A DNA stretch of 64,000 nucleotides, taken from Leptolyngbya sp. NIES-2104. Its GTDB lineage: Bacteria > Cyanobacteriota > Cyanobacteriia > Leptolyngbyales > Leptolyngbyaceae. Made by a program: the position numbers and the translations under genes. Shown piece by piece: positions 19,023 through 22,685 of this stretch. The DNA lies in NCBI RefSeq assembly GCF_001485215.1, contig NZ_BBWW01000001.1, positions 1,364,001-1,428,000 on the forward strand. The letters are read 5' to 3'. A model generated the notes under the pieces. That model had not been told where the DNA came from. It saw nothing but the letters and a program-made list of their open reading frames with translations, and ran no database searches. Numbering within the stretch: the stretch's first letter is position 1; each line of letters begins with the position of its first letter.

Positions 19023-19125
19023 GTGGGGAGTGGGGAGTGGGGAGAAATGTGGGGAGTGGGGAGAAAGATGCTGCAAATTACGCTCATCCAAATCTATCTC
19101 CCTACTCCCTACTCCCCACTCCCTA
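19023..19125. repeat. GGGGAGTGGGGAG / CTCCCTACTCC inverted low-complexity repeat
   Basis: The left arm (19023-19064) is a tandem of GTGGGGA units, and the right arm (19098-19125) is a tandem of CTCCCTA/CTCCCCA units that can pair with it. The right arm includes the stop codon of the SLH protein gene on the minus strand. Such GGGGAGT arrays are frequent in cyanobacterial intergenic DNA. It could act as a terminator-like fold. Confidence 0.6.
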
Positions 19126-20097
19126 CTTCGTCGGCGTGATTCTTCCTTCTTTCACCAGTGCTTGATAGAGTAACGCTGCCGCGTCTGCACGAGTCGCCAC
19201 CCGGTTTGGAGTCAACTGCTGAGGGCTTGGAAATCCAGTAACAATCCCCGAACCGACGGCTGCCGCGACTTTTCCCTGCGCCCATTTTGGTAAGTCAGCC
19301 ACATCCTGGAATTTTGCCAGGGTTTGATCCGGGGCGGTGGGGGCAGGAATGTTCAAGCCGGAAGCAAGGGCAACCTGCAATTGATACAGCGGAATTTGCT
19401 GATCGGGGCGAAACAGTCCTTCGGCGTATCCGCTCATGAATCCGGTTTGAATCGCATCATCGATCGACGATCGCGCCCAGTAATTTTCTGGCACATCTTC
19501 AAACGTCTGAGTTTGTCGCTCTTTCGGTTTGCCAAAAGCTTTTCCGAGTAGCGAGGCAAATTGAGCGCGAGTAATTGGCTCATTTGGCTTAAAGCTGCCG
19601 TCCTGGAATCCACCTAAAATGCCACGGCGCGATAGTTCTGAGATGTAAGCCGCTGCCCAAAAGTCACCCGGTACATCGGTGAAGCCTTTTGCTACTCCGG
19701 GAGAAGGTGGAGTCGTGGGAGACGGAACCACATTCGGGAGATTGTTCGGGCTGGGAACTGGAACTGGGACAACCGCTGTAGGACTGGGCGGAACGGTCGC
19801 CTGTACTGTGGGCTGAGGGGCACTGGTCGCTTCAATTTGAGGAATTGGAAGCAGCGTTTGAGGGCTTGCAGGTGTCGTCACGATCGCATTCCCTCGACCC
19901 GGTTCGGCTGAAGGCAACACAGCCCCCGGAGAAGGCGAAACCTGTGGCGCACTCGACAAGAGCGATCCGAGATCGAATCCAGTATCGGTCTGGCGAGTTG
20001 CCCAGAAAAAAATGCCTCCGATGCTCAAGAACGCAACGAACATCGCGATTAGTTCATCAGAAGTCAAACGATGGCGCGGATCGGGTGGAGAAGTCAT
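19123..20097 (-). CDS. S-layer homology (SLH) domain membrane-anchored protein
   Basis: The 324-residue product has an N-terminal membrane segment (IAMFVAFLSIGGIFFWAT, about residues 17-34), a Pro-rich linker to about residue 140, and three SLH modules. The first two are visible as FTDVPGDFWAAAYISEL...GFQDGSFKPNEPITRAQFA and FEDVPENYWARSSIDDA...EGLFRPDQQIPLYQL; the third ends in RVATRADAAALLYQAL. SLH modules bind pyruvylated cell-wall polymers or, in cyanobacteria, link the envelope to peptidoglycan. No porin barrel follows, so this is not an OprB-type SLH porin. It stands alone between leuS and a sugar isomerase gene. Confidence 0.85.
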   Translation of the reverse strand: MTSPPDPRHRLTSDELIAMFVAFLSIGGIFFWATRQTDTGFDLGSLLSSAPQVSPSPGAVLPSAEPGRGNAIVTTPASPQTLLPIPQIEATSAPQPTVQATVPPSPTAVVPVPVPSPNNLPNVVPSPTTPPSPGVAKGFTDVPGDFWAAAYISELSRRGILGGFQDGSFKPNEPITRAQFASLLGKAFGKPKERQTQTFEDVPENYWARSSIDDAIQTGFMSGYAEGLFRPDQQIPLYQLQVALASGLNIPAPTAPDQTLAKFQDVADLPKWAQGKVAAAVGSGIVTGFPSPQQLTPNRVATRADAAALLYQALVKEGRITPTK

Positions 20098-20203: not shown

Positions 20204-21130
20204 TTAGGTTGTGAGCGATTTTGTGATGTTTCGGGGTCGATCGACATCTATCTTACGTAGGATTGCAAGCTCATAGGCTAAAAGTTGCAGCGGTATCACA
20301 GTTAAGAATGGGCTAAAGAGTTCGGGGATCGCAGGGGTCGGAATTTCAATCACAGGAGTTTGATTGGCTCGAATACGATCGAGCGTTTTTCCCACGTTCC
20401 CGATCGCGATCGTTGGAATCTGTGAATCTAAAAGCGCGATCGGTCCATGCAGAAATTCGCCCGCCGCATATCCTTCTGCATGAGTATAAGTTGCTTCTTT
20501 TAGTTTTAATGCGCCTTCAAGTGCGATCGCGGTATTGATTCCGCTCCCAATCACGATTAAATCGCGAGTATTTTCTAAGGTTTTTGCAATTTCAGCGATC
20601 GTATTGTTTCTCAAAATTGCTTCAATCTGCTGCGGAATTAGTCGAAGTTCTGTGAGTTGCTTCTGTGCAAGTTCAAACGCAAGCTGATACAAAATCACTA
20701 ACTGTGCTGTAAATGTTTTCGTTGCTGCAACGCTTTTTTCTTCTCCAGCATTGGTATAAATTGTTTGATCAACGAGCTTGGTAATGGTGCTATCAATTCC
20801 GTTGGTGATTGCAATTTGTTTAGATTGAACAGTTTTTAATGCTGCGATCGTATCTGCCGTTTCACCCGATTGAGTTATGGAGATCGTTAATGTATTCGAC
20901 GTTTCAAGCAATGGAGCAAATCGCGATTCTGATGACGATCGCACTTGTGTTGGAATTTTCGCAACTTGTTCAAACAAGAATTGTCCAATCAGCCCTGCGT
21001 GTAAGCTTGTTCCACACGCGAGAATATTAATGTGATCGACCTTTTCAAACGCAATCGAAATCGAGCGATCAAGCAACTCCCGAATCACGTCAGGCTGTTC
21101 GTGAATCTCTTTGAGCATGAAATGAGTCAT
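20204..21130 (-). CDS. Stand-alone GlmS-type SIS isomerase/deaminase lacking the glutaminase domain
   Basis: The product (308 residues) corresponds to the C-terminal two SIS domains of glucosamine-6-phosphate synthase. MTHFMLKEIHEQPDVIRE equals the linker that joins the two halves of GlmS; the sugar-phosphate loops CGTSLHAG and SITQSGETADT, then EGALKLKEATYTHAEGYAAGE and a terminal RPRNITKSLTT, are all present. The N-terminal Cys-dependent glutaminase half (about 240 residues) is missing and no remnant is upstream. It could be an ammonia-dependent or deaminating (NagB-II-like) enzyme acting on glucosamine/fructose 6-phosphate. The start at 21130 overlaps the HNH stop as ATGA, so translation is coupled. 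Confidence 0.8.
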   Translation of the reverse strand: MTHFMLKEIHEQPDVIRELLDRSISIAFEKVDHINILACGTSLHAGLIGQFLFEQVAKIPTQVRSSSESRFAPLLETSNTLTISITQSGETADTIAALKTVQSKQIAITNGIDSTITKLVDQTIYTNAGEEKSVAATKTFTAQLVILYQLAFELAQKQLTELRLIPQQIEAILRNNTIAEIAKTLENTRDLIVIGSGINTAIALEGALKLKEATYTHAEGYAAGEFLHGPIALLDSQIPTIAIGNVGKTLDRIRANQTPVIEIPTPAIPELFSPFLTVIPLQLLAYELAILRKIDVDRPRNITKSLTT

Positions 21131-21399
21131 CGTTTTACTCTCACTTTGCGATCGGGATTTTGCTTCCGTACCCAAGCGAGAAATTTAGCCATTTCGGGAT
21201 TTGCTCTTAATCGTTCAACGGTGTTTAATTCTTCTGCAAGGCGACGATTGTCGAATAAGACGTGAATTTGGCGATGACAGGCGGGGCAAATATCGATCGT
21301 TTCACCGGGATCGAGTTTTTTGCGTTTGGTGTGTTGGCGAGGGATTAAATGATGTTCGGTGAGGGTAGGAACATCGCGATCGCAAAGCTGACAAAGCAT
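21127..21399 (-). CDS. Small HNH-endonuclease-fold protein
   Basis: A 90-residue protein with a compact HNH/zinc-finger fold: CQLCDRD (Cys-x2-Cys), the motif EHHLIPRQH, then DICPACHRQIHVLF with a second Cys-x2-Cys and the final His. Such stand-alone domains nick or bind DNA, and close relatives are widespread in cyanobacteria with no known role. Its TGA stop overlaps the ATG of the GlmS-like gene (ATGA), so the two are almost certainly one transcript. No methylase or other restriction partner is nearby. Confidence 0.8.
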   Translation of the reverse strand: MLCQLCDRDVPTLTEHHLIPRQHTKRKKLDPGETIDICPACHRQIHVLFDNRRLAEELNTVERLRANPEMAKFLAWVRKQNPDRKVRVKR

Positions 21400-21439: not shown

Positions 21440-22024
21440 TTAGCGTCCTGCTCTTAGAATCTGTTCGGCTGTGAGTTGCAGATTTGGAAATATTTGAGAA
21501 GCGACTGCATCAGTGCCACGAAACTCACAAACTTGATACCCTTCTTCGTGCAAATGCAATACTCTTACTACTGATCGTATTGGATCGACTTGCCAAAACT
21601 CAGAAATGTCTCGCGCTGCGTATTCCTGGGGTTTCTCAATATAATCACGATCGTGGTTCTGGTCGCCGGGTGAAACGACTTCAATCACAAGTTCAGGCGC
21701 TGGCATTTCGCGAGTCACTGCCGATCGCCTCGCGCCGTCTAACGCTGTTGCACCCTGTTCGTTTAACACCATTAAATCCGGAAAACGACTAGTGACAGAG
21801 CGACTGCTGACAAAAATTTCAGTTCCACGTCGGATCAAATAATGCTGTGTGAATTGCAAAAACACGGAGAAGAGAAATCCGGCAATCACAACGTTCAGGT
21901 CACTTTCAGCAGGCAATTCGATAATCTCCCCATCAACCAATTCATAGTTACCCTTTGGCAGATCTGAGGGATCGAGTGCGGCATATTCTTCGAGCGTTCT
22001 GAAACGCGGCTTGGCTTGAGTCAT
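21440..22024 (-). CDS. Uma2-family putative endonuclease (DUF820), copy A
   Basis: A 194-residue PD-(D/E)XK-fold protein of the Uma2 family, highly expanded in cyanobacteria. Seen here: the opening EEYAALDPSDLPKGNYELVDGEIIEL, the catalytic region FPDLMVLNEQG and APELVIEVVSPGDQNHDRDYIEKPQEYAARDISEFWQVDP split across the window of motif II-III, and the tail LTAEQILRAGR. Enzymatic activity and target are not established for the family. It is a tandem relative of the gene at 22095-22685, 70 bases away, with the same terminal eleven residues. Confidence 0.85.
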   Translation of the reverse strand: MTQAKPRFRTLEEYAALDPSDLPKGNYELVDGEIIELPAESDLNVVIAGFLFSVFLQFTQHYLIRRGTEIFVSSRSVTSRFPDLMVLNEQGATALDGARRSAVTREMPAPELVIEVVSPGDQNHDRDYIEKPQEYAARDISEFWQVDPIRSVVRVLHLHEEGYQVCEFRGTDAVASQIFPNLQLTAEQILRAGR

Positions 22025-22094: not shown

Positions 22095-22685
22095 TTATCG
22101 TCCTGCTCTTAGAATTTGCTCGGCTGTCAGTTGCATCTTTGGAAACGTCCAAGAAGCGATCGCTTCACTGCCGCGAAACTCTCTAGATTGATAGGTTCCA
22201 TCTTCAAGCTTTAGTACCGTTACGATCGATCGTTCTGGATCAATTCGCCAAAACTCCGAAATTCCTCGTGCTGCATACTCACGCGGCTTTTCCACGTAAT
22301 CACGATCGTAATTCTCGCTGCCCGGATTACCTGGAGAAACAATCTCAATCACGAGCAATGGCGCGGGTGCATCTGCGGCAATCAATGCTTGTGGCAACCC
22401 GTCGATCGCAGCAAACGACTCTTCCGAATGAACAATCAAATCAGGATCACGCGCCGTTACAGCCGATCGACTGACTGCGATCCACTGTTTGAACCCAATA
22501 CGATAAGCCGGAATTCCAGACTGAAGAAAAGCCGCAAACAGAAAGCCAGCAATAATCGTATTGATCGTACTTTCAGCCCCCATATCCACTAATACCCCAT
22601 CCACCAACTCGTAACGGGTATTAGTACCGTCGTCATACGCCAGAAATTCCTCGATGCTCGTAAATCTTGTCTTGGTTTGGGTCAT
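22095..22685 (-). CDS. Uma2-family putative endonuclease (DUF820), copy B
   Basis: The product (196 residues) parallels copy A: TRYELVDGVLVDMGAES at the N-terminus, RDPDLIVHSEE carrying the acidic metal ligand, APLLVIEIVSPGN with the Glu, then DYVEKPREYAARGISEFWRI with the Lys and Tyr, and the tail QLTAEQILRAGR. All expected PD-(D/E)XK residues appear intact, so it may be active. The tandem arrangement with copy A suggests duplication, but the two have diverged widely in the middle. Confidence 0.85.
   Translation of the reverse strand: MTQTKTRFTSIEEFLAYDDGTNTRYELVDGVLVDMGAESTINTIIAGFLFAAFLQSGIPAYRIGFKQWIAVSRSAVTARDPDLIVHSEESFAAIDGLPQALIAADAPAPLLVIEIVSPGNPGSENYDRDYVEKPREYAARGISEFWRIDPERSIVTVLKLEDGTYQSREFRGSEAIASWTFPKMQLTAEQILRAGR

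Follow-up and report, generated by a model that had tools for sequence, protein, structure and literature searches.

The stretch of DNA analyzed here (the window; 64,000 nucleotides from Leptolyngbya sp. NIES-2104) contains, at 20204-21130 on the minus strand, a gene for a 308-aa, GlmS-isomerase-like tandem SIS protein without a glutaminase domain, a putative glucosamine-6-phosphate (GlcN-6-P) deaminase characterized from its ORF, Pfam and PDB matches, and a residue alignment. It is preceded by the gene for a 90-aa, distantly HlpB-like HNH protein (21127-21399, minus strand; ORF, PF01844, NF058586), whose stop codon overlaps the SIS start as ATGA at 21127-21130 (minus strand; junction AAACGATGACTCAT). 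Downstream of the SIS gene, Pfam and neighborhood comparison place a gene for an SLH-domain protein at 19123-20097 (minus strand); upstream of the HNH gene lie two tandem Uma2-family genes (21440-22024 and 22095-22685, minus strand; Pfam), which flank the pair and fall outside the proposed enzyme. A promoter and terminator scan found fewer sites than shuffled sequences contain on average.

The 308-aa protein matches PF01380 (SIS) in two stretches (Pfam, E = 1.9e-35) and covers residues 10-366 of 1MOQ, the isomerase domain chain of E. coli GlmS, likewise in two stretches (E = 1.1e-57); its best PDB matches, by sequence and by fold, are GlmS structures. Its N-terminus, MTHFMLKEIHEQ, aligns with HYMQKEIYEQ of 1MOQ, and the ORF that precedes the gene encodes the HNH protein rather than a glutaminase. 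The ORF, the PF01380 match, and the 1MOQ alignment thus confirm the preliminary description of this locus, which had noted that the isomerase half of GlmS is present and the glutaminase half missing. Relative to 1MOQ, the protein has two short deletions that this description does not mention: one of approximately 14 residues near residue 25, and another of approximately 25 in the second SIS subdomain, between 1MOQ residues 257 and 260. Counted from the isomerase start, copies in the host genus measure 306-322 aa (7 copies read), and copies of the same type (type A, below) in other genera 340-393 aa (20 copies read). An AlphaFold model of the protein, built from only 5 sequences, has a mean pLDDT of 67.6, with values below 50 for residues 297-308 and for a stretch close to the active site (212-233); this low-confidence model agrees with the fold only, and was kept out of the active-site analysis.

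The SIS gene is under purifying selection in the genus, with dN/dS values of 0.075-0.134 across 7 genes (21 pairs); the gene of G020, split over two ORFs, was excluded from this set. These values, together with the absence of stops, rule out a pseudogene reading of the window copy. The copy in another genome, G015, contains an internal TAG.

Relation to known SIS enzymes

Three curated models relate the protein to characterized classes, of which NagB-II and GlmD are taken to be deaminases of the SIS fold from NCBIfam and PDB entry names. TIGR01135 (GlmS) scores highest, at 298.7 bits against a cut-off of 418, followed by NF046059 (NagB-II; 131.9 bits, cut-off 430) and NF041128 (GlmD; 74.8 bits, cut-off 580), while models for fructoselysine-6-P deglycase (35.6 bits) and AgaS (29.2 bits) match weakly. 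None of the NCBIfam deaminase models is reached, and the GlmS model, which fits better, also remains below its cut-off. The host's own GlmS scores 118.6 bits with NF046059, so that the NagB-II score of the SIS protein barely discriminates. By curated score, the protein falls in none of GlmS, NagB-II, or GlmD; it may work in a NagB-II-like manner, and is not filed here as a member of that class.

With the GlmS isomerase domain (TIGR01135; 1MOQ, 1MOS), the protein shares the tandem SIS fold, the phosphate loops, residues Glu488, His504, and Lys603, and the C-terminal tail. It differs in having no glutaminase domain, a replacement of Lys503, and approximately 25 residues fewer in the second SIS subdomain. 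Its likeness to NagB-II (NF046059; 8EOL) lies in the stand-alone tandem SIS architecture, the Leu before the catalytic His (as in 8EOL), and a Lys kept near the C-terminus; however, its score is well short of the NagB-II cut-off, and no nagA gene is found near it, in contrast to the nag operon of X. campestris (PMC13055268). GlmD, too, is a glutaminase-less SIS protein, but the score with its model is below the cut-off (74.8 versus 580 bits).

The residues given as catalytic for the GlmS isomerase, Glu488, His504, and Lys603 (PMC9272926), are all retained. In the 1MOQ alignment, K209, E212, H228, and K304 of the SIS protein correspond to E. coli Lys485, Glu488, His504, and Lys603, and these four are invariant in 18 of 18 aligned type-A rows (29 type-A paralogues are known); the phosphate loops and the C-terminal tail DVDRPRNITK are likewise retained. 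The position preceding His504 differs from GlmS: all 37 GlmS sequences read have Lys as residue 503, each of the 27 type-A paralogues read has Leu (13) or Met (14), and the four type-B copies read (below) have Met or Cys. The NagB-II chain 8EOL has Leu at this position. However, because the stand-alone SIS protein 7KQA keeps Lys there, position 503 is no clean marker, and its replacement should be taken as a hint rather than as proof.

Amino-sugar genes and distribution of the paralogue

The preliminary description had called for a search for a full-length glmS elsewhere in the genome, whose absence would have pointed to a split enzyme. The host genome (6.39 Mb in 5 contigs) does encode a full-length GlmS of 628 aa, scoring 812.2 bits with TIGR01135 (cut-off 418), and the window gene is therefore not one part of a split GlmS. 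The idea that the glutaminase is encoded elsewhere is thereby ruled out, and nothing was found in its favor: the other three PF13522 glutaminase matches in the host are a PurF-like protein (by eye), an asparagine-synthase-like protein, and EgtC. The EgtC gene (TIGR03442, 323.7 bits; L087) adjoins an EgtB-like gene (by eye). A 624-aa ORF elsewhere (L006, 1366-3240) appears by eye to be a glycosyltransferase fused to a GmhA-like SIS domain.

The host also encodes NagA (246.2 bits, cut-off 225.65) and MurQ (426.3 bits, cut-off 302). Classical NagB (NagB-I) was not found in the host genome; the sole PF01182 match is a 6-phosphogluconolactonase, scoring 265.6 bits with TIGR01198 (cut-off 124) and 27.8 bits with the nagB model. 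As to the genomic setting by which NagB-II is recognized, the host is a genome with NagA and without NagB-I, while its nagA lies more than 2 Mb from the SIS gene on the same contig, outside any nag-gene neighborhood. Across the order, gene positions place no NagA or MurQ gene within 40 kb of the paralogue on the same contig.

Among 42 genomes of the order, sorted by match score and frame length, 29 contain the type-A paralogue, 5 a divergent type B, and 8 neither. Type B, a second divergent glutaminase-less GlmS paralogue that scores 248-314 bits with the type-A profile, is seen in G007 (L124), G010 (L123), G031 (L126), and G005 (L128); in G007, 1.75 kb of contig separates the match from the isomerase region of the full glmS. 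GlmS-length frames occur in 37 of the 42 genomes, with none in G004, G010, G014, or G036; a second, 323-aa frame in G011 was counted as a probable GlmS piece. A broader sample comprised 244 cyanobacterial genomes with a completeness of 95% or more. The type-A profile finds a match of E 1e-70 or better in 240 of them, a threshold that would miss weaker paralogues. Frames shorter than 577 aa are restricted, among the matches listed, to G000, G027, and G032, all of the host's family; the matches listed leave out the second matches of G183, G204, and G244.

A tree of 51 rows places the GlmS rows, 19 in number, on one side of a branch supported at 100/100, which indicates that the paralogue did not arise by recent truncation of the glmS gene of the host. 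Bootstrap support for a branch that sets type A apart is only 9%; with open deep forks and no root, an origin of type A from GlmS and an origin beside GlmS are both compatible with this topology.

Genes for the steps preceding the proposed reaction are widespread in the order. NagA is detected at E 1e-30 in 39 of 42 genomes (36 over cut-off) and MurQ at the same threshold in 41 (38 over cut-off). NagB-I, by comparison, exceeds its cut-off in only two genomes (G002 and G003), which belong to the 8 lacking any SIS-only paralogue; it does so in none of the 34 paralogue-bearing genomes (Fisher p = 0.033, uncorrected for kinship). This exclusion fits a replacement of one enzyme by the other, and may represent a single event, as G002 and G003 belong to one genus. 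Three paralogue-bearing genomes give weak, sub-cut-off matches to the nagB model (G039, 68.5 bits; G008, 46.2; G007, 45.9). Six of the 42 genomes (G001, G006, G009, G024, G029, and G030) have NagA and MurQ and neither NagB-I nor the paralogue, indicating that recycling does not always need the paralogue.

Proposed reaction and alternatives

These data suggest that the SIS protein may be a lone GlmS-related isomerase domain acting as a GlcN-6-P deaminase in amino-sugar recycling, a reading to which we assign a probability of roughly 50%. In the proposed pathway, MurQ would convert MurNAc-6-P from the cell wall to GlcNAc-6-P, NagA would convert this to GlcN-6-P, and the SIS protein would pass the product to glycolysis by the reaction GlcN-6-P + H2O -> Fru-6-P + NH3, as in NagB-II and GlmD. 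We infer the deaminase direction, GlcN-6-P as the substrate, and the role in recycling, and deamination appears the best explanation because a GlmS-type site without channeled ammonia is present in a cell that has GlmS, NagA, and MurQ, and in which no NagB was seen. Points against it include the failure to reach any deaminase model, the Lys that the stand-alone protein 7KQA keeps at position 503, the six genomes of the order with neither enzyme, the weak nagB-model matches in three paralogue-bearing genomes, the distance from NagA and MurQ genes, and the interrupted copies of G020 and G015.

The preliminary description had left the choice between a deaminase and an ammonia-dependent synthase. 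That pair was a reasonable one, though the failure to find NagB-I, the presence of NagA and MurQ, and the Lys503 change would favor the deaminase. A synthase would combine Fru-6-P with free NH3 to give GlcN-6-P, as a bypass when ammonia is plentiful. GlmS is indeed the closest family by score, and Glu488, His504, Lys603, and the C-terminal tail are all kept, as a synthase would have them; but the host already has a full GlmS, and Lys503, present in every one of the 37 GlmS sequences read, gives way to another residue in all 27 type-A paralogues read, making a synthase improbable. The substrate raises a separate question. SIS-only enzymes outside GlmS act on varied substrates, and instead of GlcN-6-P the protein could use a different amino or keto sugar phosphate, on which it would act as a deaminase, isomerase, or deglycase in the manner of FrlB or AgaS. 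Though the weak deglycase and AgaS matches point in this direction, both lie far below the scores with the GlmS and NagB-II models, and the catalytic residues of GlmS are retained along with its DVDRPRNITK tail; we regard this reading as unlikely, if somewhat less so than a synthase. Finally, being homologous to the isomerase half, the protein might instead be a non-catalytic or regulatory partner that enters mixed dimers with GlmS; the invariance of the catalytic residues across 18 of 18 rows makes this quite improbable.

Taken across the family, GlcN-6-P deamination by the SIS protein would permit a broader proposal, which we advance only tentatively and consider rather doubtful: that family f1 possesses its own SIS-fold GlcN-6-P deaminase, nearer to GlmS than to either NagB-II or GlmD, which replaces NagB in the recycling of peptidoglycan amino sugars; the GlmS isomerase fold would then have given rise to a deaminase once more, independently. 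If the deaminase reading of the SIS protein is correct, it would name the missing deaminase step of amino-sugar recycling for a family of filamentous cyanobacteria. It would also provide a natural pair within one cell, GlmS and a glutaminase-less paralogue, with which to identify the residues that determine in which direction the GlmS reaction runs. Among the matches listed in a search of open-licence papers, none was identified by title or abstract start as treating the cyanobacterial paralogue.

The HNH gene and the gene order around SIS

The HNH protein scores 25.5 bits with PF01844, over the Pfam gathering cut-off of 21.4, and its residues 3-89 match NF058586 (HlpB). Like HlpB of Bacillus subtilis, it is a small stand-alone HNH protein, but its score of 79.7 bits is below the HlpB cut-off of 130. 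A role of HlpB linked to AddAB repair is described in PMC3765158. The HNH genes of the genus give dN/dS values of 0.035-0.111 across 6 genes (15 pairs, some with dS >1); the HNH gene of G021 was excluded. In that genome, the HNH matches fall in two frames (L065, 153-460), and the contig coverage of 2.3 makes a sequencing error possible.

The overlap of the HNH stop with the SIS start, as given in the preliminary description, is real and common to every adjacent case: six of the eight genomes of the genus (G000, G018, G019, G020, G021, and G023) have the two genes side by side, and the ATGA is kept in 6 of 6, beyond chance. That description also took the coupling for a functional oddity, a view not supported by the survey of the pairing, which is confined to part of one genus, with the genes apart elsewhere. 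Outside the genus, adjacency is found in 0 of 34 genomes; an HNH relative occurs in 8 of these (two as partial matches), always on another contig than SIS. Within the genus, the HNH gene of G017 lies 2.4 Mb from SIS, behind an ABC-transporter ATPase gene, and no HNH was found in G022 at E 1e-8. A transporter neighbor of HNH shared by G017 and G004 was considered and ruled out, as the two upstream proteins are unrelated.

A single functional module of HNH and SIS, such as a defence or DNA-repair pair, would account for the retention of the overlap and for HNH relatives being found only where type A is also present (15 of 29 genomes versus 0 of 13; Fisher p = 0.001, uncorrected for kinship), though common ancestry and the threshold of the HNH search may lie behind this co-occurrence. 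However, such a module is at odds with the absence of adjacency beyond the genus, with the separated genes of G017 and the lack of a detected HNH in G022, and with the multiple HNH copies of G032 (3) and G028 (2). Moreover, G020 has a whole HNH gene beside a SIS gene in two ORFs, and G021 a whole SIS gene beside an HNH gene in two frames, subject to the possible sequencing error there. A functional pairing is therefore unlikely, and we give the module very little weight. The overlap seems to be a recent and accidental product of gene order. It would reflect a genus-level rearrangement, through which the SIS gene may share transcription or ribosomes with HNH and no function; within a single genus, a 4-base gene overlap can come about by local accident, and shared function need not follow from it.

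In G022 and G017, the place of HNH is taken by an MFS transporter gene, and SIS starts 3 bases behind it (L061, 3037-5250; L062, 5753-7966). Import of a sugar by the gene in G022, a Pfam MFS_1 member with a relative in G017, found no support; the best 25 of its 86 NCBIfam matches are all below cut-off, and mostly to efflux models. The Uma2 genes found beside HNH in the window also occur there in G018, and not in G019, G020, or G023; the contig of G021 ends at this point. On the other side of the SIS gene, adjacency to the SLH-domain protein gene is wider than that between HNH and SIS, extending to 8 of 8 genomes of the genus and to 2 of 2 of genus g13.
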